DNA of 64,000 nt, taken from Chrysochromulina tobinii. Its lineage: Eukaryota; Haptophyta; Prymnesiales; Chrysochromulinaceae. The notes under the pieces are model-generated. The model saw nothing but the letters and a program-made list of their open reading frames with translations, was not told where the DNA came from and made no database searches. Of the stretch, positions 3,183-17,315 are shown piece after piece (position 1 is the first letter of the stretch; every line of letters starts with the position of its first letter). A program made the translations under genes and the position numbers. The stretch is taken from contig JWZX01002881.1 of assembly GCA_001275005.1 (NCBI GenBank), forward strand, positions 23,022 through 87,021, written 5' to 3'.

Positions 3183-4097
3183 ATTGGCCTTCGCCGAGCA
3201 ATCCGCGGGCGGCACGACCTTTGTTGACTGGTTTCGCCCGATGATGTAATAGACAGGGTTGTAGGCAAACGCGGAGTCCGGGCCTGCATTCGCCTCCGGT
3301 GCGAAGGCGCGCACCTCGGCCAACGGTATGCCATACCGGTACGCGGATGGCCGAGCTGTCGAGCGCAGCGGCATCGTTGCCAAATTAGGAGGCTTCATGC
3401 CGGGGTGAAGGTCCAGCCACTGACGTAAGGTGGACGCGGGGGCGCCGCCCTTGATGTCGGCAACGATCGTGTGCATGTTCTCGCCTTGCCGGCTCGCAAT
3501 ATTTCGGACGATGTCCACGAAGTCGATTTCGAGCCGCCTCGGCACATAGATGATCAGATCAGACCACATGTGCGTGCAGCGCGTCGTGTTCGTCTTTCGG
3601 TGGACCGAGCGGAACGGCAGCATGAGCTTGCCGTCCTCGTCGGGCGGCGGTGGAAGCGGCAGCGGCTTACGAAACACAAGGTCCGCGCGAGTGATGAACA
3701 ACGCGGAGCGCGATCTCCACTCCGCCGGCCCAGTCTGATTCGCCCAAACGAGGGTGGCTACCAGGGTCTCAGTCTGAGTACGATGGCGATACGTCTCCCT
3801 GATGCGCTCCTCAATAATTGCAGCGCGGAGCCCGCTTGCGCTCTTCGCTCGCTGCCAAGCGCTGTGCAGGTGAGAGGGCATCACCACGTCGATGGCGAGG
3901 CCAACTCGCCATCCGAGGGTGCGTGCGGGCGCGATGACATTTTGCTGGAGAGACCGCAGTGCCTGGATCTGCTCATCGGGCGACGAGCTGACTCGTAGGG
4001 GCGCGCTCGGGTCTTGCGAGGCTCGTCCGCCACCGCGGAAGGCCAACCCGCGGATCACGATCAAGAGGATGTTCTGCATGAGTACCCCTTGTTGCAT
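2523..4097 (-). CDS. Putative glycosyltransferase-like protein with poly-Ala tract
   Basis: Single exon of 524 residues from the ATG at 4097; a second ATG at 4079 begins a hydrophobic stretch (MQNILLIVIRGLAF) and may be the true start. The N-terminal 300 residues look like a folded domain: an opening hydrophobic strand, an RGLAFRGGG motif, a central LFITRADLVF strand and a later SDLIIYVPRR strand. This resembles algal proteins described as nucleotide-sugar transferase-like, but the match is by eye and weak. It is followed by about 17 consecutive Ala from a GCC/GGC run and a long Ala/Lys/Glu helical tail. The stop is TGA. No intron is needed. Confidence 0.5.
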
Positions 4098-4265
4098 TCG
4101 ACGGATCGCCTCCGTCGCGTGAACGTAAAAAGGTCGTTTCACACCCCAAACACGTTCCGTTCACACCATCGAGGGTCCTAAAAAAAGGGACCCTGCTCAC
4201 CCGCGCCATGTAAACCCTACACACCCCACACGCCCCCCACACTGTCACCAGGGCGGGCGTGGCCA

Positions 4266-7200
4266 TCACTTCTTGCCCTTCCCCTTGTTCCGTACCTTGA
4301 TGGTGATGGGCGCAAAGTCGCAGTCGGGACGCCCACAAGCCGTGCAGTACTTGACGAGCGACGTCGACTCGGTCGCAGGGATTGCGTCCGAACGCTCCTT
4401 GGCACGCCGCGCACGCTCCTTCGCCTCGCGCAGCTTCGTCAACTGCTGCACGTTCGAGCCCTGCTTCTTGAGCATCTCGCCCACGCCGGCGTCGTCGACC
4501 CCGTACTTCTGCTTGAGGAAGTCTTTCGTTCCCTGCGGCCAGTCGCGCTTCCCGGTCATCATCTGCTCAATGTCGTCGAGCTCGCCATGCCAGCCTGAGC
4601 CCATCATCGCGTCGCTCACCCACAGGTCCTCGCCGTCGCCCTTCGCCTCCTCGTCCCCATCGCCCGCCTCCTCGCCGCCGCCCTTTTTCTCGCGCACGGT
4701 GCGTGTGAGGACGTTCGTGGTGGTGCGCACCACGGGCGCTCTCTCGTACATCTGATCCATCGGGGTCGGCTCATGCAACGGACGCTCCTCCTCGTCGACC
4801 TCGTTGCATAAGTCACCCGACGACAGCCCGTCGTCGCCGCCGCCGCCGCTGCGACCGCCGCCGCTGCGACCGCCGCCGCTGCCGCTGCCGCTCGTCGAAG
4901 GTTCGTCAATCTCTTCAATCATCGAAGGTCCGTCAATCTCTTCAATGATCGCGCCGCCACCAGTCGAGCCAGCGGCCGGCGCGAGGTTCAACCACCCACC
5001 GCTGCTGCCGTTACCGCCAGTCGTGCGGCCGTAAGACGGTGGGTGCGAGCCACCGCCTCTGCCGCCGCCGCCACCATCGGCCGGTGGCCAGACGGGCGGC
5101 GGCTGACTGGCCGCGCCCACACCCTTGCTCCCGGCGTGCTTCTTGACCATCGCCCGCAGGCCTTCTTCATCAGCGCCTATCAGCTCGTCCACCTTGACCT
5201 TCTTGACGAACGCCTGGAAGGTGGGCATGGCCCGCACGCCGCACGCGCGCGCCGTCTCCTGGTTCTCGTCCACGTCGACCTTGATGAAGCACGCGTGCGG
5301 GAACTCGAGGGCGAGGGCTTCAAAAGTGGGGACGATTCTCTGGGACGGTTCGCACCACGTCGCTGTGAAGTCGACAAAGGTGGTGGTCGACGAGGCGGCG
5401 CTCTGTGCGAGGACGGCGTCGTATTCCGCCTTGGTGGCGGGCTGGCGTATGGGTGGCGAGCGCTGGCTCAGCGTCGGCTTCTGTGAAGCTGATCTCTCCT
5501 CCGCCGCCGCCCACTCGTCCGCAGTTTCGTCAAAGGGCGCGAGATCACGCACGGCGGCGTACAGATCGGCCACCTCGTACACGCCGAGCAGCTTGGACGT
5601 CGGTTTGGCGGCGGCGCCGCCGCCCGCCGCCGCTGCCGCCGCCTTCACCTCCTTCATGCGCCGCGTCGCGCGCTTCTTGTACATGGTCGCGACGAGCGTG
5701 CCGACCGTGCGGCCGCACGCCCAAGCTGGCCCGAGGCCGCGCATTAGCTGTCGCATGCAAGGCTCGAGGGCGGCCGCCGCGTCGGGCGAGAGGCTGAGCT
5801 TCTCCTTGGCGACCATCGAGCTCGTCACCTGGGTGAGGGAGAGGGGGAGAGGGGGAGGGGGGATGGGGAGGGGGTTAGGCATGGGGTCAGGTTCGTCAGC
5901 CGTGGGTTAGGCATGGGGTCAGGTTCGGGTTCGGGCTTGCCCGTCACCTTGGCCGCAAGGCTCGCTGACCACACGGGGAAGTGGAGTGTCTTCGAGAAGC
6001 ACGAGGCGAGCGTCGCGCTCGCGCCAAAGAGTTTGCCTGATGAGGGGGGCAATCGGCATGCACTTTTTCAGCGATGCACACTCAGCGATGCACTCAGCAT
6101 GCAATCAGGTTGTCGCGTTCGCGCCAAAAAGGCTTGCCGATCTCGTCCTTGGTGCCAGCGACGATGACGACAAGCTTGCCTCGGTACTCTTCAGATAAGA
6201 CGAGCTGCGACAGCGTGTCGCATACCTCCTTGTTGTACGATGCGCCGGCGCCGGCCCCCGATTCGGGCGCCATCCCGCCCGCATCGTCAATGAAGAGCAC
6301 GCCCCCCAGCGCACTCTTGACGATCTCGGTCACCTGATGAGGGAGGCAATCAGCATGCACTCGGAGGCCATCAGCAATGCACTCAGAGATGCACTCAGCG
6401 AGGCAGTCAGAGGCCGAGCACTCTGAGGACGCTCGTTCACCTTGGCCTGCGTGCCGCCCAAGTACCGATCCTGCATCGTGCGCCCGCTCATCTTGACCAC
6501 ATTGTCGCTCGGGAGCAGCCCCACGTTCTTGAGGATGGACCCGAATCGGCAGGCGAGCGTCGCCTTACCCACGCCGGGCGCGCCGCAGAAGGCGAGGTGG
6601 CCGAGCATGCCGCGAGCGTCGCGCTCCTCCTGATGAGGGAGGCAATCAGATGCCATCAGAGGCCATCAGAGGCCATTCGAGGCCATCATAGAAGCCATTA
6701 GAGGCCACTAGAGGCAAATTAGACACAAGCAGACGCAGCAATCGCACGCAGACGCAAGCGGACGTACCTCCTTGGCAAGGCTGAGGCTCGCCTCGAGCTC
6801 ATCAAAGTACTCGTGGATGAAATCGACGTCGACCAGGTCGTCGAGCGCCACGCGCACCTGTGGGGAAGGGGTGGAGGCGCCGCGGTGAGCACTTGCATGC
6901 CGATCCGAGTCGGTCGAGCCGCCACGTGGCGCACCTTGGAAAAGTCGGCCGGGTTCTTGTCAAAGTCCTCAGGCAGCAGCAGCGACTGGTTGACGCGCGT
7001 GCCGCCAGGGGGGGCTTCGCCGAGGTCCGCGGCGGCGCGCTCGGCGGCGAGGGTCTTCGTGAGGCGCGATTGCATCCGTTCTTTGGCGCGGGTGAGGGCG
7101 TTGTCGACCGAGCCCGCGTTGCCAAAGTTGGGCTTCATGCGCTCGCGAGCGATGATGGCGACGGCGTCCTCGGCGGTGGGCAGCGTGATCGAGAGACCGG

Positions 7201-10200
7201 CCGAACGAACCTGTGGGGAAGGGGTAGGCGCGCCGTGGTAAGCACTTCGCCCTTGATGTGTACGAGCGCGCCATGGTGAGCACTTGCATGCGCACCTTCT
7301 CCCTCAGGATGTGAACGAGCTGCGGGTCAGTGTAGTCGGCGAAGAGGAAGGCGTCCTCGGGCCGAAAGCGCCTCGCGAGCCCCGGGTTGGCATCGCGCAG
7401 CAGCGCGTTCACGTCGTCCTCGTAGCCGCACATGATGATCGCGATGTCCTCCCCGGGGGTACCTTGCACCTGATGAGGGGCGTCATCGGATGGCAATCAG
7501 AGGCGATCAGATGGCAATCCGTTCGTCATCAGATGGTCCTCAGATGGCAATCAGGGTACCTTTTGCACAATGGTATCGACGACATTCGCGCAAAAGGAGT
7601 TGGACGAGCGCTTCGGGTTGAGGCCGTAGCACTCGTCGATCAGCAGTACCTGGTGAGCATCGTGGTGAGAGGGCGTCGTGGTGAGCATTTGCATGCGCTC
7701 GGCCTGTTCGCGCCGTGATGAGCATTTGCATGCGCTCGGCCTGTTCGCGCCGTGGTGAGCATTTGCATGCGCTCGGTCTGTTCGAGTCGTCGATGAGCCG
7801 CACCTTGCCTCGGCAAGCTTCGAGAAGCTCGACCGTCTTGCGCTCGCTCTCACCGACCGCAGAGCCCAAAAAGTCCGAGGGTCCCTTGACGACCACCTGA
7901 TGAGGGAAGCCATCAAGGGAGGTCATCAGGGAGGTCATCAGGGAGGTCATCAGGGAGGTCATCAGGGAGGTCATCAGGGAGGTCATCAGGGAGGTCATCA
8001 AGGAGATCGCACCTCGCCGTTCGAGAGGAAGCCGAAACGCTTGAGGAGTCGCCCAAAGAGCTGTGGAAGGAGGGCCAAGCGCCGCGGTGAGCACTTGCAT
8101 GCACGGTAGGGGTCCTGGGTTGAGCGCTCCGCGTACCTTGGCGACGGTCGTCTTGCCAGTGCCGGGCTTGCCGTAGAAGATCCGATGGAGAGGGACATAG
8201 AGAGGCTTCTCGCCTCGAGCCTCGCGCTCCCAGTTGCCCAGCTGGAGGTGCATCAGCTCGCGCACCTGATGAGGGATGCAATCATATGCAATCAGATGCA
8301 ATCAAGGGGTGCAATCAAGCTGGAGGTGCATGAGCTCGCGCACCTTGGCCTTCACCTCGTCGAGGCCGGTGAGTGTCTCTAGCTCCTTGAGCTCAGGCGA
8401 GTTGTCGAGCACCGGCTTGGCACCCTGATGAGGGGCGCAATCAAGAGGCGTCCTCAGAGTTCATCAGAGTGCTCATCAGTGGGATCATCAGCGCTCATCA
8501 GCAGGATCATTAGTGCTCATCAGTGGTATCATCAGTGCTCATCAGTGGCCTCCGTACCAGCGCATCCTCCCGCGAGATGGTCGTCGCCATCTCAGCGCTC
8601 GGCGTCTCGCCTCCGTCGATGAGCATCGAGAGGCGCTCCTCTTGTCGCTTGATAGCTTGCTCGATCTGATTGCGCACCTGATGAGGCAGCCAATCAGCAT
8701 GCACTCAGCCACGCAGCATTACGAGGTTGAGAATCTGGCGGCAATCAAGGGTTGCAATCAAGGGGTGCAATCAAGAGGCGTCATCAGAGGTCATCAGAGG
8801 TTGAGGATCTGGCGGCGGCGCACCGCGCGCGCGTTGCCAAAGCCGCGCTGCCCCGCGCCGTAGGCGAGGCGCGAGGCGACGATCGACGCGACCGACGGGC
8901 TTGCCTGATGAGGGGAGCAATCAGCATGCACTTTTTCAGCGATGCACACTCAGCGATGCACGCAGCATGCAATCAGGTTGTCGCGTTCGCGCCAAAAGAG
9001 CTTGCCGACTCGACGACCATCTTGCGGTCGCTCATCATCTTGTGATAGATGGCGCGCAGCTCGGGCTCGAGATAGTCCTCGAAGACCCACCTGATGAGGG
9101 GCGTAATCGGAGGTCATCAGTGGCAATCAGCTGGCAGGTAGCATGCACTCAGAGGCGCACTCACGTGTTTGGGAAGCGCGACGCGAGCCCCGGGTTGAAC
9201 GAGAGTAACGTCTCGACTTCATCACGGTAGCCCGCAAGCACAACCGAGCACTCGCCACGCTTATCCTCCGCAAAGGTGAGCAGCAGGTTCATGATGTCGG
9301 CGCCGTCCTTGTTGTTCTTCGGGTCGAGCTGGTACACCTCGTCAATGAAGAGCACGCCGCCGTCGACCTGCTCGAGCATCTTCTTGAACTCGTCCGCGCC
9401 GTCCCGGAGCAGATTACCGCCGGTGGTGCTCCGTATTTCGGAGCTCGAGCGCAGCTTGAAGTCGTGCAGGATCTTGGCCATCAGACGCGACACCTCCGTC
9501 TTGCCCGTACCTGATGATAGAGGCCGTCAGGCGTCATTAGAGGCGTCATTAGAGGCAATCAGAGAGGCCACCAGGGGCCATCATTAGAGGCCATCAAGGG
9601 CAATCAGAGGCCATCAGACGTGCCCGGGTTGCCGATGAAGACAAAGTGGCGGTTCACGTCGGCGGTAGCGTCCGCCGGCTTCAGGCTTGCAAGCTCGACG
9701 GAGTACGCGACGTTGAGCGCGTCGCGCTTGATGCGCTCGAGGCCGACCATCGCCATCAACTTGTCCATCGCGCTCGACTTAATCTCGGGGTGCTTGAGCT
9801 TGTACCTGATGAGGGAGGCCATCAGCCATCCTCAGAGGCCATCAGAGGCCATCAGAGGCCATCAGAGGCCATCAGAGGCCATCAGAGGCCATCAGTGGTC
9901 ATCAGAGGCCATCAGAGGCCATCAGAGGTCATCAGAGGTCATCAGAGGCCATCAGAGGCCATCAGAGGCCATCAGAGGCCATCAGAGATCATCAGACGTA
10001 CCGCTCCCACTGCGCCTTCGCCAGCGACGCGGATGCCGATTCGAGCGGATCGTCGTCGTCGTTCTCCATCAGCTTCTCGACCGTATCCTTATTTGGGTCG
10101 AGCCAGAGCGCCGCCTCTGCCTCGAAGAGGGCGAACGTGCGCAGGTACAGCGATGCACGCAGTCGGTGCTCCTTGGCGGGCTTGAGCAGCTTGTGCGCGA

Positions 10201-13200
10201 GATAGCACCCGTAGAGTACGACGGGGTCGAAGGCGGCCTGCGGCATCGGCGTCTCGAAGGTGCGCAGGTACACCTCGATGCGTCGACGCGGCTCGACTGG
10301 GTCCCAGCCCTGAGGAAGGAGGCCATCAGGCGTCATCAGGCGTCATGACAGCTCATCGATCGACATCAGAGCTCATCAGAGCTCATCCGGCTCATCAGTG
10401 GCAATCAAGGTACCTCCTTGAGCTGCGAGAGTGCGGAGTAGATTTGGCAATCAGTGGCAATCAGTGGCCATCAGTGGCAATCAAGGTACCTCCTTGAGCT
10501 GCGAGAGTGCGGAGTAGATCTGGCCGCGCGGATCCGCCGTCTGGTCGCAGAGCTCGTACCTGATGAGGGAGGCAATCAGAAGGGTCATGGCATGGTACAC
10601 GGCGGCAATCAGAGGATCCTCCGCGGCAATCAGAGGCAATCAGAGGCAATCAGACGTACGCCTTCTGGTACTCCTTGCGCAGTAGATGGCACACGCCCTG
10701 GCGCAGCTGCGCGTCGGCGCTCTTGAACTTGTCGTCGATCCGAGACGTCGCGTCCGCACCAAACGAGGCCTCGAGGGCGGTGTACATGGCGCGCAACGCG
10801 ATGGGCGGCAGCAGTCGCGCCGCCTCGAGCGTTGGGCGCATGGCGCGCGCGCGGGCTGCTCGCGGCAACGGCTGTGCCTCGCCCTCGGACGACGGCGTAA
10901 CCACCAAGGGCGGCCGGAGGTCAGAGGTCGAGGCGGGAGGGGCGGTGGCCTCCGCCCCCGCCCCCGCCGATGCCGCCGCCGCCGCCGCCGACCCCGCCGC
11001 CGCCAATGACGACGACGACGCGGACGATGGCATCGGTGCAGACGCATTCTTAGCGGCTGCGGGCGTGCGCTCCATGAGGAGAGAATCGAGCTCATCGACG
11101 GCCGCACGGCGCTCGGCAGAGGCGGCTGCCTCGGCCGCCCGCTCAGCCGCCTGCTGCTCCTTTTGCAGCCGTGCGGCGGCTAGGCGCGCATTGACGACGT
11201 CGAGTGCCTCGACGAGCACCTGATGAGGGGTGCCATCACGAGGTGTCATCAGAGGTCATCAGAGGTCATCAGAGGTCATCAGGGGTCATCAGAGGGCCGT
11301 GTAGATCGGTCCGAGCGCCGTAACGAGCACCATGTCACCGCTGACCGGTGTGAAGTGCTTCACGTGGAGCTCCGTCGCCAAATGATACACCTTCTCACCG
11401 ACGCCATCGGCCACATGCCCGCCGGAGCGCCCGGCAAGATCGATAGCCTTCAGAATGCGCGTGGGCAGCCCTGATGAGGAAGGTCATTAGAGGTCATAGA
11501 AGCCAAATGAGAGGCAAGTAGAGGTCATGAGAGGCGAACAGCTTGCGTACCGCACCCCTCCGCCTCGGCTTGGAATCAGAGGTCATCAGAGGCACTCATA
11601 TGTCATCGGAGGCAATCAGCGTACCGCACCCCTCCGCCTCGGCTTGGAATCAGAGGTCATCAGTGGCACTCATATGTCATCGGAGGCAATCAGCGTACCG
11701 CACTCCTCCGCCTCGGCTTGGAATCGCTGCCCTCGCTCACCACTGGCCGAGAGGAGTTTGAGGAGGCCTTTGAGTGCGATGAGCAGCGTAGGCATCACGT
11801 ACGCCATGTCGGAGCTCGAGCCTTCGCCCTCGCCGCTCACCCCGCCGCTCACCTGAGGAGGGAGGCCATCAAGGCAGCTGATGAGGGCGGCCATCAAGGC
11901 AGCTGAGGAGGGAGACCATCAAGGCAGCTGATGAGGGAGGCCATCAAGGCAGCTGAGGAGGGAGGCCATCAAGGCAGCTCACTGAGATCATCCTTGCAAA
12001 GAGTTCGACCGGCTTGATCTTATTGATTGCCGAGAGCATGAGCAGGCCCATCGGCAGCAACCCCTGCTTGCCCTTCACCTCGACCTGCACCTGCGTCTTG
12101 TCATCGCTCAATTTCGTCACCTTCCCAATGTCGGAGGCAGACTCAAACGGCGCGAGCACCGTTGGGGCCTTCTCGCCCTGAGGCTTGTCCGAGAGCATGA
12201 CCTTGTCGCCGACCTTGGTCGACTTGACCTTATGCGCCTCCTCCCACTTGGTAAGAGACAGGCACAGGCTCTCGACCTCACCATCTCCCGCGCAATTCTC
12301 GAGCGCGACCGCGAGAACACCGCCCGCCGCGGCGCGCACCGTCGTCGGACGCGTCTCGTCGATCGAGATCGCGTAGATCGGTCCTGATGAAGGAGATTAT
12401 CAGGATATTATGATACTACGTACTATGTCATCAGAGGTCATCAATAGGCCATCAATAGGCCATCAGAGCACCGTACACCTCCGGGTCGAAGGCGAGCTCC
12501 GCCCGTAATCAGAGGTCATCAGAGGTCATCAGAGGTCATCAGCGCACCGTACACCTCCGGGTCGAAGGCGAGCTCCGCCCGATGCTTCTCAAAATGGCAG
12601 AGCGTCCTCGCGAGCAGTACGAGCGCCAGCTTGCACACGGGCTCATCGTCGAGCGCCGCCGCGTCGCAAAAGTGCTTCACGATGCTCCCGTTCTCCTTCA
12701 TCCGGTTGAGGACCACCGCGCCGGCCGTCTCGCCGCTCGCCGTCGCTGCTGCCGCGGCGGCGGTGTCGCCCGTCGACTCCGGTTCGTCATCCGTATTAGG
12801 CAAACCCATGCCTGTGCCTTCGGCCTCGGTGACCGTGTTGAGCACGTCGAGCGGCCGCAGCAGATGGGCATGTCGCGCCGGCGGCGTCGCCGGATCACCC
12901 TGTTTGGCTTTGAGGTACTCGGCAATGCGCTTGGTCGCCTGCTCCACCTGATGAGGGAGGCAATCAGTCGCGCTCAGCTCGCAATCAGGAGACCATCAAG
13001 AGGCGACGGCGCTCGATCGCCTGCTCCACCTGATGAGCTAGGCAATCATCGTCATCAGAGGCAATCATCGTCATCAGAGGCAATGCACCTCGCTTGGCAG
13101 CCACTTGGCCACGTTGTCGCACAGAGCTTGCACCGGCGCCATGCCACCCAGCGTCATCGCCTTGATCAGGTCGAGCACCACATCGCGTAGCGCCGCCTCG

Positions 13201-14609
13201 AGCGCCTCCATCCCCTTAGCTTCCTTCTCCTTGTCGCGTAGGGGCTCGTCCGTCACCGCGAGGAGGAGCATCACGATGTCCTAGACGACTTCTCGCTCGA
13301 GAAAGGCGCCGAGGGCGGTCGCCTGCTCGGCCGTGGCGGCGGCGCCGAGTTGGGCGGCCTGTTTCTTGTCGATGCGTGCGGCGAGCGCATGCAAGAGAGT
13401 ACCGGCCTCGACGAGGTACCTGAATGAGGGAGACTATCCGAGGTCATCAGAGACCATCCGAGGCAATTAGAGGTCATCCGAGGCCATCGAGGCCATCCGA
13501 GGTCATCCGAGGCAATGGAGGCCATCAGAGGCCACATCGGAGGCCATTACTAGGGGATTGGAGGCCATCAGAGGTCATTAAGAGGCCATTAAGAGGCCAT
13601 TAAGAGGCCATCAGAGGCCATTAAGAGGGTATTAAGAGGGGATCGGAGGTGATTGGAGGCCAGCCGACGTACTGGAGGGTGGCTGGCGAGAGCTTCTTCG
13701 TGCCCAGCATCGCCTTCGACTGCAGCGAGCTCGAGAGCGAGAAGGTGCACTGTGGATCGATCTGCAGGGGCGGCCGCAGCGAGGGCGATGCGCGCAGCAT
13801 CTTCGCAAGCGTTCCGAAGAGGCCAGTGAGGTTCCACTTGGGGAGGAGCTCGCAGAGAGGGTTCTTCTTCTCTGGATCGAGCGCTTGGCTCATATTGGCC
13901 CGTGAGCGTTGCACGCTGCTCTCGCCCCACGTGATGGCGAGCGACAGCACTGGCCCCATCGATTCGGCAGCTCGAAAATCGATGCTCGTCGAGATCATCG
14001 AGATCGTCGCGTCGGCTGTGTCGCCGCCGCCGTCGGTGCCGCTCTCGGCGAGGGCACGGCAGATGCGCTCGCACGCGCTGAAAACCTGCAGCACGCTCAT
14101 GCCGCGCATGAAGATGTCGGTGAGCGTCTCGGCACGCGCCTTTTCGACGCCCTCAAACGGCGGCTCCGCAAGCAACGAGCGATCCGAGCTCTTCTTCTTC
14201 TGCTCATTCTCCATCTTGCGAGCACGTATCGTGCTGAGCAGCGCCGCGCACTCGTCAAAGAGGACCTCGAAGCTCTGGCGCGCGCCCTCCATGGCCTCCA
14301 TCAGCGTCGCTCCCTCCGCCGAGCGCAAGAAGCGTCCCCACAGCTCGCACACCTGATGAGGGACGCCATCAGCATGCACTCAGAGAGGCAATCAACGGCA
14401 ATCGAAGAGGCCATCCAGAAGCGTCCCCACAGCTCGCACACCGAATCCAGCGTGCTCACGTAGCTCGCAAGCGTCGCGAGCGCCGTGACTGCATGCAGCT
14501 GCACCCGCTCCGTGCGCATCGGATGGGAGAGCACCCACGAGATGACGCGCAGCGACGGCACGAGGATTTCGTCATTGGGCGAGTCATCGGCGTGGAACAC
14601 GGACTCCAT
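4266..14609 (-). CDS. Helical-repeat protein with three CbbX/CfxQ-type AAA+ modules and a thioredoxin-like domain, 27 exons
   Basis: The hand-built model is 7077 nt (2358 residues). Introns: 5829-5947, 6037-6137, 6334-6440, 6630-6767, 6858-6934, 7211-7295, 7470-7559, 7650-7803, 7897-8012, 8061-8136, 8266-8343, 8425-8557, 8678-8823, 8905-9005, 9091-9164, 9511-9623, 9806-10001, 10310-10489, 10560-10659, 11220-11297, 11471-11698, 11853-11982, 12384-12547, 12948-13088, 13420-13672, 14353-14441. All keep frame. Exons from 14609 to about 10000 encode helical, ARM/HEAT-like sequence. AAA module 1 (about 10000-8558) has GNPGTGKT and GGVLFIDEVYQL. Module 2 (8424-6935) has GKPGTGKT and VLLIDECYGL. Module 3 (6857-5830) is degenerate: GAPGVGKA, FIDDAGG, and no Arg in the SRF-like motif. 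The last exon has a thioredoxin-like fold with WCEPS in place of WCGPC, then a Gly-rich linker. Odd points: one in-frame TAG at 13281-13283, and an uncertain start because the frame stays open upstream into the RPB1 remnant. Confidence 0.75.
6037..6137 (-). repeat. 101-nt introner-like intron, GC donor (copy A)
   Basis: Donor GAGATCG|GCAAGC, acceptor CTCATCAG|GCAAAC; splicing restores GTKDEIG-KLFGASA. The first 26 intron bases are a diverged copy of the downstream exon start (GCAAGCCTTTTTGGCGCGAA versus GCAAACTCTTTGGCGCGAG). It is 96/101 identical to the intron at 8905-9005. Confidence 0.8.
6858..6934 (-). repeat. Introner-like intron, second family (GCATGCAAGTGCTCACC ... CCCCACAG)
   Basis: Carries the 17-base motif GCATGCAAGTGCTCACC followed by CGCGGCGC and a pyrimidine-rich CCCCTTCCCCACAG acceptor. 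The start GTGCGCCACGTGGCGGCTCG parallels the exon start GTGCGCGTGGCGCTCG. Related motifs occur in introns 7211-7295, 7650-7803, 8061-8136, 27592-27721 and 28209-28350. Confidence 0.75.
7650..7803 (-). repeat. Intron with three tandem copies of a 36-bp second-family unit
   Basis: Three copies of a unit containing GAGCGCATGCAAATGCTCA lie in tandem. The donor sequence GTGCGGCTCATCGACGACTC copies the Walker B exon start GTACTGCTGATCGACGAGTG. If translated, the intron copy would read VRLIDDS against VLLIDEC in the exon. Confidence 0.75.
7897..8012 (-). repeat. Intron made of a 12-bp tandem array
   Basis: About eight head-to-tail copies of GGGAGGTCATCA (plus strand) fill the intron between donor GAG|GTGCGATC and acceptor CTCATCAG|GTGGTC. 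Confidence 0.75.
8266..8343 (-). repeat. Introner-like intron flanked by a 26-bp near-perfect duplication
   Basis: The intron opens with GTGCGCGAGCTCATGCACCT and the next exon opens with GTGCGCGAGCTGATGCACCT; 25 of 26 bases agree over the full duplication. The body is TTGATTGCA-type repeats ending CCCTCATCAG. Confidence 0.85.
8905..9005 (-). repeat. 101-nt introner-like intron, GC donor (copy B)
   Basis: Donor GAGTCG|GCAAGC, acceptor CTCATCAG|GCAAGC. Same length as 6037-6137 with five mismatches. Its 5' end matches the exon next to intron A (GCAAGCTCTTTTGGCGCG), whereas its own downstream exon shares only the first six bases. Confidence 0.8.
9806..10001 (-). repeat. Intron made of a decanucleotide array
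   Basis: About sixteen copies of GCCATCAGAG (plus strand) with a few GTCATCAGAG variants, between donor CG|GTACGTC and acceptor CTCATCAG|GTACAAG. An array like this is expected to vary in copy number. Confidence 0.8.
10310..10489 (-). repeat. Intron containing a second copy of the upstream exon's 3' end and donor
   Basis: The exon end AAATCTACTCCGCACTCTCG...AAGGAG|GTACC recurs inside the intron at about 10410-10446, nearly identical over some 35 bases. Both copies carry an intact GAG|GTACC donor. Using the inner donor would read into a TGA, so the outer one (10489) was chosen. Confidence 0.8.
11471..11698 (-). repeat. Intron with exon end and donor repeated three times
   Basis: A unit of about 79 bp containing AAGCCGAGGCGGAGG and GTGCG|GTACGC occurs as the real exon end (near 11700-11725) and twice more inside the intron (about 11545-11575 and 11622-11650). 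Splicing from the outermost donor to CTCATCAG|GGCTGCC keeps frame. Confidence 0.8.
11853..11982 (-). repeat. Intron made of CTGCCTTGATGGCCTCCCTC repeats with many internal CAG sites
   Basis: About five copies of a 25- to 26-bp unit, each ending in CTCATCAG or CTCCTCAG, so the array carries multiple potential acceptors. The donor GTGAGCTGCC mirrors the exon start GTGAGCGGCG. Confidence 0.75.
12384..12547 (-). repeat. Intron with duplicated exon end (about 37 bp) and donor
   Basis: The exon end GGGCGGAGCTCGCCTTCGAC...GGAGGTGTACG|GTGC is repeated almost unchanged inside the intron at about 12472-12510. The outer donor with acceptor TTCATCAG|GACC preserves frame. Confidence 0.8.
12948..13088 (-). 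repeat. Intron with a duplicated acceptor and exon start
   Basis: CTCATCAG|GTGGAGCAGGCGA occurs twice: at the true acceptor (12948) and inside the intron near 13020-13035, where the following bases drift from the exon. The donor is GCGAG|GTGCATT. Confidence 0.75.
13420..13672 (-). repeat. 253-nt intron of degenerate GGCCATCAG/GAGGTCATC repeats
   Basis: The donor GTACGTCGGCTGGCC resembles the exon start GTACCTCGTCGAGGCC. The acceptor is CCTCATTCAG. This is the longest intron of the AAA+ gene. Confidence 0.7.
14353..14441 (-). repeat. Introner-like intron flanked by a 25-bp perfect duplication
   Basis: Intron start and downstream exon start both read GTGTGCGAGCTGTGGGGACG and remain identical for 25 bases. 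This is the cleanest example in the window, consistent with a recent insertion. Confidence 0.85.
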
Positions 14610-14651
14610 AAGAGTCCTCCAAGAGTGCTCGTACTTCGAGAGCAGCTCACC

Positions 14652-17085
14652 CTGCTTGATGCCGATGTGGTCAATCTTGGAGCTCTCGAGTTCCTGAACG
14701 GCGTCCATGCCGTCCTCACCGTAGAGGAACTCGAGCACCTTGCCGGCGTTACGCACGGTGTCGTCGTATTTGACGATGATGTCCTCCATCGCCTTCACGA
14801 GACGGCGCTGGATGTAGCCCGTCTCCGCCGTCTTGACCTTGTTGAGCACTTGGTTGACCGAATGCTCGAACGACTCCATCATCGTCTTGCCGGGCTGGCA
14901 CTCGAGCTCGGCCGACTGGGCGCGCTCGACGAGCGCCTTCACCTCGCGCTTGGACGCCTCGATGGTGGCGACGATGTCGTCCAACGTCTTCGCATCAGCG
15001 ATCGTGTCACCGATCCCGATCGAGTACGAGCGCTGCAAAATCCTGTGGTTCACGACGCGCTGATGGCAGCCCAAAAAAACGCGGGCTGCCCTGCGGCCCG
15101 TGCTCGAGCCAGATCGTGTGCACGATCGCACCGCCGCTCGTGCCAAGCATCTTCTTGTCGAGCATGCCTGCGAGCAGTTCGCCGCCGTCGGGTGAGAAGA
15201 CAATCAGAGGCCATCATCGGTCGGATGCAATCAGAAGCCACCAGAGGCCATCAGAAGCGAGCATGCCTGCCAGCAACTCGCCGCCGTTGATGATGACCTT
15301 CGTGTCGGTGGGCGACATATCGTCTTTCTCGTCGTCGGGGCGACCGTTGGATGTGCCTGAGAGGTAGATGTTCGGCAAAAAGAGACCCATGATCTGCTTG
15401 CCCGTCCAGAGCGGCTTGGGCTTGAGGATGGCGGGCGCGGGCAGCTTACCCGAGAACGAGTCGAGGTGCAGGATCAGATTCATCACGAGGTCCTTCTCGA
15501 GAAGCAGTCGGGTCGCGTGAAGGCACGCAAGCCGAGGAGGGTATCCTGCACGATGCCCATGACGAGCTTGTTCGACTGTGGCGACACGATGCAGCGCGGC
15601 GTGAGCATGATCTCGGAGCACTCGGCGCGCGTCTCGTGCGTCTGCAGCACGTGCGTGTTCATCTTGTCGCGTCAAAGTCGACATTGTACAGCGAGGTACA
15701 GCTGAGATTCATCCGGAAGGTGGAGTAGGGCATGATCTTGATGCGGTGGCCCATGATCGACATTTTGTGCAGCGACGGCTGCCGGTTGAACATGAAGATG
15801 TCGCCGTCTTGCACATGCCGCTCCACCTTGTACCCGGGCTGCAGCGCCTTTTGGACGTTTGGCTTCGACAAGCCGAGACGCAGACCGTCGTTGCGGATGA
15901 TGTAGCGTGCGCCGGGCAGCGTCGACGGCCCATTTTCAAAGAGCTCCTGCAGCTTGGCGATGTTGAAGGGCGTGACCACCTCCGGGTACGTGAGCGTGCG
16001 TGCGACCGTGCGCGGAACGCCCACCTCATCGATGGCGAGATTCGGGTCGGGCGTGATGACCGAGCGAGCGCAGTAGTCAACTCGCTTGCCCATGAGGTTG
16101 CCGCGGATGCGGCCCGCTTTCCCTTTGAGGCGCTGCGAGATGGACTTGAGCGGCCGACCCGAGCGTGTGGTCGCGGGCATCATGCTCACGGAATCTGATT
16201 CTCCACCATCATCGCGATGCGGTACTGGAGCAGCCGCGTCGTCTGCAGCTGGATGTGGTTGGGCGCTCCATTCTTCTCGAGCTCTCGCAACGACTTATTG
16301 ACGCGCACGATGTCCTGGAGCATGAGAGTGATGTCATCCTCGGCGCGCCCGCCCGTCGAGTCCATCTAGACCGACGGGCGCACGTGCGGCGGCGGGATCG
16401 GCAGCACGGTGAGCACCATCCAGTCGGGCCGCGCGTAAATTGGATTGAAGCCGAGCCGCAACGCATCCGAGTCGGTGATGCCCTTGAGAATGCTATGCGC
16501 GCGCTCGGGCTGCACTTCCATCTTGCGCTCGTGGTCGTCCGTAGACTCCTTAAACTCGGCCGCGATCGTCAGCCCGTCGCGCTTGAAGTTCGGTTGCGGC
16601 GCCGAGCACGACCAGCACGTCTTCTTCGTCTTCGCAAAGTCCATCACGGCGCGCAGCCGCTGCGCCGGGTTCTTCTTGCGCGTGGCAGCGGCGAGGCGTA
16701 CCCCGTCGGGGTTTGCCTTGCCGTCTTCGGCTGGCTGGTCGCCAAGGATGGCCGAGCACGAGAAGCAAACGCAGCGCAGCACCTTGAGCGTCGTGTTGAG
16801 GAAGGAGACGTGGTACATGGGCTTCGTGAGCTCCAAGTGCCCGAAGTGACCCGGGCACTCAGAGGAGTCCATGCCGCAGCTCGCGCAGTTCAGGAGGCGG
16901 TCGATGGCGCCGAGCGCCGGGTCCATGAGCCCGCCAGGGATGGGCTTGCCATTCTCAAAGGTGCGGTCAGTGACGATATTGCACACCGACGACGCCTTCA
17001 GCTCCTCGGGACCGAGGATGCCAAACTGGACGCGGCGCACCTTGCGCACGCCCGCCTCCGAGTAGCGGAAGCTCACGCCGCTCAT
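14652..17085 (-). pseudogene. RPB1: RNA polymerase II largest subunit (RPB1), degenerate 5' copy
   Basis: From the ATG at 17085 the frame encodes a clear RPB1 N-terminus: the clamp with CxxC...CPGHFGHLEL zinc ligands, [29 protein letters not shown] and KPLWTGKQ motifs. It is broken repeatedly: TAG at 16366-16368; one-base frame breaks near 16180-16190, 15664-15674 (inside the catalytic NADFDGD motif, read here as NVDFDG then out of frame), 15503-15512 and 15073-15090 (a run of seven A on the plus strand); and a loss of roughly 115 residues at about 14838, joining VNQVLNK directly to VKTAETGYIQ and removing the funnel and the first half of the bridge helix. Homology ends near 14690, before the trigger loop and the C-terminal domain. 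Residues between lesions are well conserved, so decay is recent or the assembly has base errors. Confidence 0.75.
15168..15266 (-). repeat. Intron in the RPB1 copy, apparently formed by a 28-bp exon duplication
   Basis: GGCGGCGAGTTGCTGGCAG|GCATGCTCG occurs at the upstream exon end and again (GGCGGCGAACTGCTCGCAG|GCATGCTCG) at the acceptor. Splicing from the GC donor of the first copy to the AG of the second restores ELLAGMLDKK, the normal RPB1 reading. Between the copies are TGATGGCCTC-type repeats. Confidence 0.7.
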
Positions 17086-17315
17086 GGTGGCGGCCGACTC
17101 CGACGCTGCCGGCGGCGCGGCGCCTTGCACAGGCAGGCAGGCAGTGGCAGGGCGCCAGCGCGCACCAGCGCAGAGTGGCTCATAGGGAGACTCGCAAAGA
17201 CGTGTCGAGGCCCACGACGGCGTCTTCGCGCGAACCCCGGTTCGACTGGCCAAGTGTGGAGGATGTGTGAACAAGTAAGGACGAACTGTTATTCACGACG
17301 GGCATCGGCTCGGAG
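17086..17315. promoter_or_regulatory. Divergent intergenic spacer, RPB1 copy / QSOX
   Basis: A 230-bp spacer between two divergent starts, so it must hold both 5' flanks. No TATA box or repeated motif is visible. Confidence 0.4.

Follow-up and report, generated by a model that had tools for sequence, protein, structure and literature searches.

Introduction

In their survey of introners, Gozashti et al. (2022) attribute most of these elements to DNA transposition, and they cite target duplications of 3-9 bp, inverted repeats, and inserts that borrow one splice site (PMC9860276). As described there, the survey removed low-complexity families and sought similarity near both intron ends (PMC9860276). 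The introners of Amoebophrya have direct repeats of 3-5 nt together with inverted repeats (PMC7789003). Intron gain in Daphnia leaves repeats of 4-12 exon bases, which have been attributed to staggered breaks (PMC4202315; PMC3443670), and direct repeats of 4-30 bp (mean 11.4 bp) lie near the borders of 213 introns of many kinds (PMC11782384). Here we describe introns of the haptophyte Chrysochromulina tobinii that begin with a copy of the exon that follows them. They were found in a 64,000-nt stretch of contig JWZX01002881.1, hereafter the window (G000:C1722:23022-87021), from an assembly of 53.15 Mb in 2253 contigs (GCA_001275005.1). We find that the feature is real and recent, and we rate it as a variant of known intron gain that is introner-like in scale and repair-like in its scars.

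Throughout, T denotes the duplicated target block, I the inserted part, and T-I-T the full insertion structure. Two intron families are distinguished by their 3' ends, ...CATCAG (family A) and ...CACAG (family B). The genes within 4266-15266 of the window lie on the minus strand; read on that strand, family A introns close with variants of CTGATTGCCTCCCTCATCAG and family B introns with variants of GCATGCAAGTGCTCACC...CCCCACAG. An earlier, sequence-only reading of this region had noted both endings, which correspond to our two families.

Results

The clearest example is the family A intron at 14353-14441 (minus strand), whose first bases, GTGTGCGAGCTGTGGGGACGCTTCT, are identical to the start of the following exon at 25/25 positions. 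Its first target copy occupies 14417-14441, the insert, which ends in CATCAG, 14353-14416, and the second copy, in the exon, 14328-14352. A second copy of this locus on another contig (C18), 96% identical, contains a single T and no insert. In the family A intron at 8266-8343 (minus strand), the two target copies (8318-8343 and 8240-8265) flank an insert at 8266-8317 and match at 25/26 positions. Both matches had been reported by the sequence-only reading, and both were reproduced here.

These introns belong to families that are present at high copy number. The family A 16-mer GCCTCCCTCATCAGGT occurs in 1014 exact copies assembly-wide and a 17-mer of family B in 811 exact copies genome-wide, with no copy of either reversed control; in the broad sense of shared intron sequence, these are therefore introners. 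The family A 14-mer contained in GCCTCCCTCATCAGGT has 172 occurrences in the assembly where the next base is not G. Neither the A nor the B motif was present in any of five random 5-kb stretches, and the copies are thus unevenly spread.

To measure the association between intron and target copy, we used a sample consisting of the window and 75 fetched stretches: 50 containing the motif followed by GT, 20 containing the motif followed by a base other than G, and 5 taken at random. Each occurrence of CCTCATCAG preceded by TGA at a distance of about 14-22 bases was taken as an acceptor; since 70 of the 75 stretches were picked for the acceptor word, this test cannot gauge how often that word sits flush with the target boundary. 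A copy of the exon start with a score of at least 12 was found at 97 of 187 family A acceptors, as compared with 6.2% of 1820 shuffled pairs. After removal of two duplicate rows, we dropped 61 rows in which the exon side itself resembled the introner repeat, leaving 126 acceptors. In this cleaned set, 65/126 carried a copy at score 12 or above (0.56% of 2480 shuffled pairs) and 58/126 did so at score 15 (0/2480). The copy was perfect in 26 of the 65 cases, and in 55 of the 65 it began with GT. No copy was detected at score 12 in the remaining 61/126 sites, which may be old or may have a short T. Family B behaved similarly, with a target copy in 9/22 rows (two acceptors being counted twice) and in 3/440 shuffled pairs. 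These data support the conclusion that the introns originated through insertion with target duplication, in which the 5' splice site would come from T and the 3' splice site from the inserted part.

Within the window, we tested 25 introns (24 in 5829-14441 and one at 934-1075) against 600 mismatched intron/exon pairs; the donor position is doubtful in two of the 25, at 9618 and 7292, where it is neither GT nor GC. The exon-start copy was significant at p<0.05 in 9/25 introns and at p<0.01 in 5/25. The sequence-only reading had stated that many introns carry such a copy: the effect is real, but in the window it extends to only about a third of the introns. Two of its weaker examples, at 6858-6934 (p 0.003) and 7650-7803 (p 0.03), held up. 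A third, at 13420-13672, did not rise above the mismatched pairs (p 0.45).

We next asked whether sites lacking the insert could be found, by joining the flanks of 31 T-I-T sites and searching the resulting sequences against the genome. At least four of the 31 sites (40 of 1245 candidates were scored in one batch of 14 sites) matched a second locus that was continuous across the junction, and each of these four was empty in at least one copy, as expected of an insertion. One is 14353-14441. The others lie in a gene on contig C201 (fetched stretch L023), for which a copy on contig C2024, 87-95% identical, lacks four inserts, at about 2461, 2567, 2750 and 3058; three of the four had been tested by the search, and the fourth, which adjoins one of them, was recognized on alignment. 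The inserts at about 2461 and 2567 are likewise absent from a third, more distant copy on C2174. Because these two sites are empty in both other copies, parsimony makes them gains in C201. At 2750, C2174 holds its own TGA-unit sequence after a much shorter target copy; this sequence may have been gained in parallel or may be an intron of long standing, and the change there may have gone in either direction. For 14353-14441 and for 3058, where two copies were compared, precise deletion from one T copy to the other could, strictly speaking, also have emptied the site. Together with the perfect copies, these empty sites bear out the proposal of the sequence-only reading that the system was recently active. 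Its view that the duplication provides the donor and the insert the acceptor is likewise supported.

The second copy of the 14353-14441 locus (G000:C18:1827-2476, in stretch L095) corresponds to about 13.8-14.5 kb of the window and has a 12-bp insertion of its own. It may represent a paralogous locus, an allele, or a different strain present in the assembly.

To describe the inserts independently of splice sites, we ran a splice-blind search for T-I-T structures (minimum score 15; T no longer than 60; inserts of 25-150, composed of TGA units). The search returned 125 rows, overlapping in places, of single T-I-T structures. We called a row flush if an acceptor motif (CATCAG, CCACAG, CTACAG, CCTCAG or CTTCAG) ended within 6 nt of the boundary. 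By this definition 46/125 rows were flush, with T of 17-49 bp (median 26) in a search that is blind to copies below about 15 bp; for the duplications detected, the unusual length claimed earlier is supported. Another 30/125 were non-flush with A/C/TGGT in or at T, and 49/125 fell into a class of others, in which TGCAG forms the end of at least one insert (L023 2750). Removal of rows with a repeat-like T left 31/46 flush rows (median T 26) and 32/79 non-flush rows (T 15-45, 14 perfect), and just one of these 32 non-flush inserts ended in AG. Inserts without an acceptor end are thus about as common as acceptor-ending ones. At L023 2461, the insert ends in GATTAA, T contains AAG|GT, and both other copies of the gene are empty; at least that non-flush insertion is therefore real. 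Where a T is present, the target copy forms the first portion of the intron, and the 5' start of the insert behind it varies: 70 inserts began with 58 different 6-mers.

The junctions themselves carry short homologies. For the 5' junction, we located the first 10 bases of each insert elsewhere and matched the bases preceding them to the end of T. Microhomology averaged 1.34 nt, as opposed to 0.56 after shuffling, among the 55/70 inserts with contexts, and 1.25 as opposed to 0.51 (46/58 inserts) once repeat-like T ends were left out. At the 3' junction of non-flush inserts the means were 1.48 and 0.45 (57/79), or 1.09 and 0.40 (31/44) without repeat-like T starts. The effects were slightly smaller but persisted after repeat-like T was removed, and in each junction test none of 500 shuffles attained the observed value. 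An individual case is provided by stretch L092, in which the start of T (CTCCTTCATAAG) resembles the family A end CTCCCTCATCAG and the insert stops where the resemblance starts, as expected if a growing strand re-annealed through microhomology. Both marks of intron gain by double-strand-break repair, direct repeats at the intron ends and microhomology at the junctions, were present.

Two further stretches contain unusual arrangements. On the minus strand of L021, one 39-bp insert occurs at two nearby sites (acceptors 6492/6565 and 6997/7063, T 34 and 27), at each of which it forms a tandem dimer. In a T-I-T at 3491 on the minus strand of L014, the usual arrangement seems to be mirrored, with a donor (GTAATT) that comes from the insert and an acceptor (GTGCAG) that comes from T.

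The remaining window features are all on the minus strand. A family A insert at 12948-13029 (T 19/21) lies at the end of another family A intron, 13030-13088. The family A intron at 6037-6137 has a GC donor and a diverged T of about 25 (p 0.003), and a near copy of it, including its target-derived start, lies elsewhere in the same gene at 8905-9005. An intron thus seems to have moved inside one gene along with target-derived sequence, with the direction of copying a matter of inference; gene conversion between repeated domains is perhaps the route. Of the family B introns, 6858-6934 shows its T only when gaps are allowed, with none in the ungapped test, and 8061-8136 has no detectable T, although 10/10 homologue alignments across it are gap-free. 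The intron at 7650-7803 is built of 37-bp tandem B-like units and has a diverged T of about 19. At 11545-11725, a 74-bp unit is repeated in 2.4 tandem copies; it comprises the end of an exon, an insert and what may be a donor. Finally, 12457-12581 is a T-I-T with T of 49 and an insert lacking an acceptor end, and it overlaps a predicted family A intron at 12384-12547.

The host gene at about 4260-11030 (minus strand) encodes AAA (CbbX/SpoVK type) and thioredoxin domains, as judged from gene models, from homologues, and from Pfam matches on one AAA piece and on the thioredoxin piece; its extent is approximate. The best match of the AAA protein is 43% identical over 62%. The gene model was constructed to preserve the reading frame, which makes frame alone weak proof of introns, and it misplaced some borders (for example, 7704 for 7650 and 6098 for 6137). 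Homologues offer a separate view: at the 8266-8343 junction, 9/10 alignments are gap-free, and of the 17 introns covered by homologue alignments, 9 show no gap in the majority of them and 8 fall short of this. The latter reflect misplaced borders or poorly conserved stretches. On the homology, the segments would behave as introns, and their splicing is predicted.

Two neighbouring regions were less regular. At about 14620-17300 (minus strand) lies the N-terminal part of the RNA polymerase II subunit RPB1 (best match 75%, to a metagenome sequence), for which the model gives no clear end towards the next gene; the region is truncated, fused, or made up of two unseparated genes. At about 13281-13316, the model requires a 36-nt gap to skip an in-frame TAG, for which a pseudogene, a sequence error and a model error are possible explanations.

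Discussion

Our results indicate that these introns arose by insertion with duplication of the target, and we consider it probable, though by no means assured, that they were created by repair-like duplicative insertion of intron-derived repeats, guided by microhomology and followed by selection for exact splicing. According to this model, the target would open with an offset of mostly about 17-49 nt, either as a break with staggered ends or as a gap of this size. After copying T, a polymerase would use microhomology of a few bases to move onto repeat DNA derived from introns (or onto its RNA), copy the piece I, and return, again through microhomology, to where T begins, yielding T-I-T. A genome search gave matches to family-A polymerase on two contigs. 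The insertion process would be blind to splicing, and selection would retain those insertions that the spliceosome removes with the mRNA unchanged. The splice sites could come about in several ways: T may give the GT while I ends in CATCAG or CACAG, the AG|GT of T may give both, or the edges of an existing intron may be duplicated. As I often appears to be an intron 3' end (a branch-point-like CTGAY, a pyrimidine tract and AG), each new intron would be a further donor, and the two families would grow. The break or gap, the polymerase, the choice of DNA over RNA as template, the role of selection and the splicing are the parts of the scheme that we infer. The length of T may match the size of excision-repair patches.

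Several observations weigh against this model. The local-donor signal, which speaks for the model, is modest: the most similar insert lay in the same fetched stretch for 19/142 inserts, where 1000 permutations gave 4.3 on average and 13 at most, and mean pair similarity was 0.295 within stretches and 0.273 between them. A search with 34 of the 64 bases of the 14353-14441 insert revealed no near-exact donor in the assembly, the best non-self match having 3 mismatches; the inserts may be mosaic, or the donor of this one may be missing. The 3' module is strikingly constant (GCCTCCCTCATCAGGT in 1014 copies, its non-G form in 172), which suits a defined end of an RNA or an element. Lastly, the model requires some agent that would open targets at such offsets.

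The constant 3' module is what would be expected of the main rival, target-primed reverse transcription, in which a retroelement enzyme would copy intron RNA, often an excised intron ending in AG, at a nicked target; the copy would be truncated at its 5' end, and the duplication of the target would vary. The variable 5' start, the variable T and the 5' microhomology are compatible with it as well, and the genome contains 26 RVT_1 matches, 22 of them above the cut-off. Against it stand the inserts that do not end in AG and have 3' microhomology, one of them with empty sites, although internal priming on the RNA could still account for these. The mild enrichment of local donors also counts against it, as does, with the reservation that such counts are lower bounds, the single match in the genome to a LINE-type (long interspersed nuclear element) endonuclease domain, Exo_endo_phos_2 (PF14529). 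As to the fixed 3' insert end of LINE-type integration, the filtered rows, 31 of them flush and 32 non-flush, could be read either way. Our initial model, in which excised introns were simply reverse transcribed, was downgraded on the inserts not ending in AG, including the one with empty sites. On balance, we regard target-primed copying as unlikely, yet as the alternative to be taken most seriously. Much less probable is a classical introner, that is, a non-autonomous DNA transposon that brings one splice site and makes very long target duplications. It would explain the two high-copy families and the splice site taken from the target, as in families described in PMC9860276. However, an element joined at fixed ends fits poorly with the variable 5' starts, the variable T, the free 3' ends and the microhomology at both junctions, and we rejected a fixed-end transposon because 5' starts and T lengths vary. 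With 58 different 5' 6-mers in 70 inserts there is no shared terminal pair; an inverted repeat at the termini presupposes that both ends are fixed, and the varied starts count against one, although no dedicated scan for inverted repeats was made. A fixed duplication of 3-9 bp was likewise not seen among the 46 flush rows, where shorter T would be undetectable. The comparison with the mobile, two-ended introners of Micromonas and Aureococcus that the sequence-only reading had drawn is therefore not supported, the acceptor-less inserts being a further point against it.

We also give little credence to an origin by slippage or tandem duplication of introns already in place, without an initial insertion. 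Multimers of the form T-I-T-I-T do exist (in L012, L018, L019, L021 and L057), as does the array at 11545-11725, but single T-I-T structures flanked by exon, with clean empty sites, exclude this process as the sole cause; it also occurs. A viral carrier was considered and set aside. A 22-mer of family A, searched as an exact word, was in none of the viral or genome contig collections, and a 23-mer of family B was found in one chimeric-looking IMG/VR contig. That contig (IMGVR_UViG_3300027760_000958; L094:4200-4554), filed as viral, has a eukaryote-like end with the family B word and a CCTGACGAA-type T-I-T, and may be a chimera assembled from a related organism.

Compared with known systems, the C. 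tobinii introns share with DNA-transposon introners the high copy number of similar introns, the target duplication, and the pairing of a 5' site from T with a 3' site from the insert; they differ from the introners described in PMC9860276 in that T is mostly 17-49 bp, the 5' start is variable, and the inserts are short tandem repeats, of the type that its low-complexity filter removed. As with the gains in Daphnia, exon bases recur as a direct repeat at the distal end of the newly gained intron, and filler copying at a staggered break or gap would fit them (PMC4202315). In contrast to Daphnia, the repeats detected here are longer (those of 4-12 bp being invisible to our search), and the filler comes from two intron families, each with roughly a thousand exact copies of one diagnostic word. 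AG|GT lies inside some T, as in intron gain by AGGT tandem duplication (PMC3443670), but here an insert separates the copies. The apparent lack of terminal inverted repeats recalls fungal introner-like elements, which, unlike these introns, are described without target duplications (PMC9860276). The repeats reported in PMC11782384 have a shorter mean than ours, and the abstract of that study mentions neither an insert family nor empty sites. In our search of open-access papers, subscription papers lying outside its scope, we noticed no report of an introner-like family with duplications this long.

The origin of new introns is still debated, and the mechanism at work here bears on that debate. 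This genome offers young introns, empty sites and junctions legible on both sides; together they point to a repair-like route and to two self-reinforcing families. More tentatively, and with less assurance than we attach to the mechanism itself, we propose that C. tobinii has gained introns on a genome scale without a transposon, its 3' splice modules spreading as repair or gap filler, with about 26 bp of target duplicated and selection for splicing. Our findings also suggest that surveys that drop low-complexity families, or that require two conserved intron ends, would miss such systems. If this model is true, introns would replicate by borrowing repair, and the length of the duplication would report the size of the repair intermediate.

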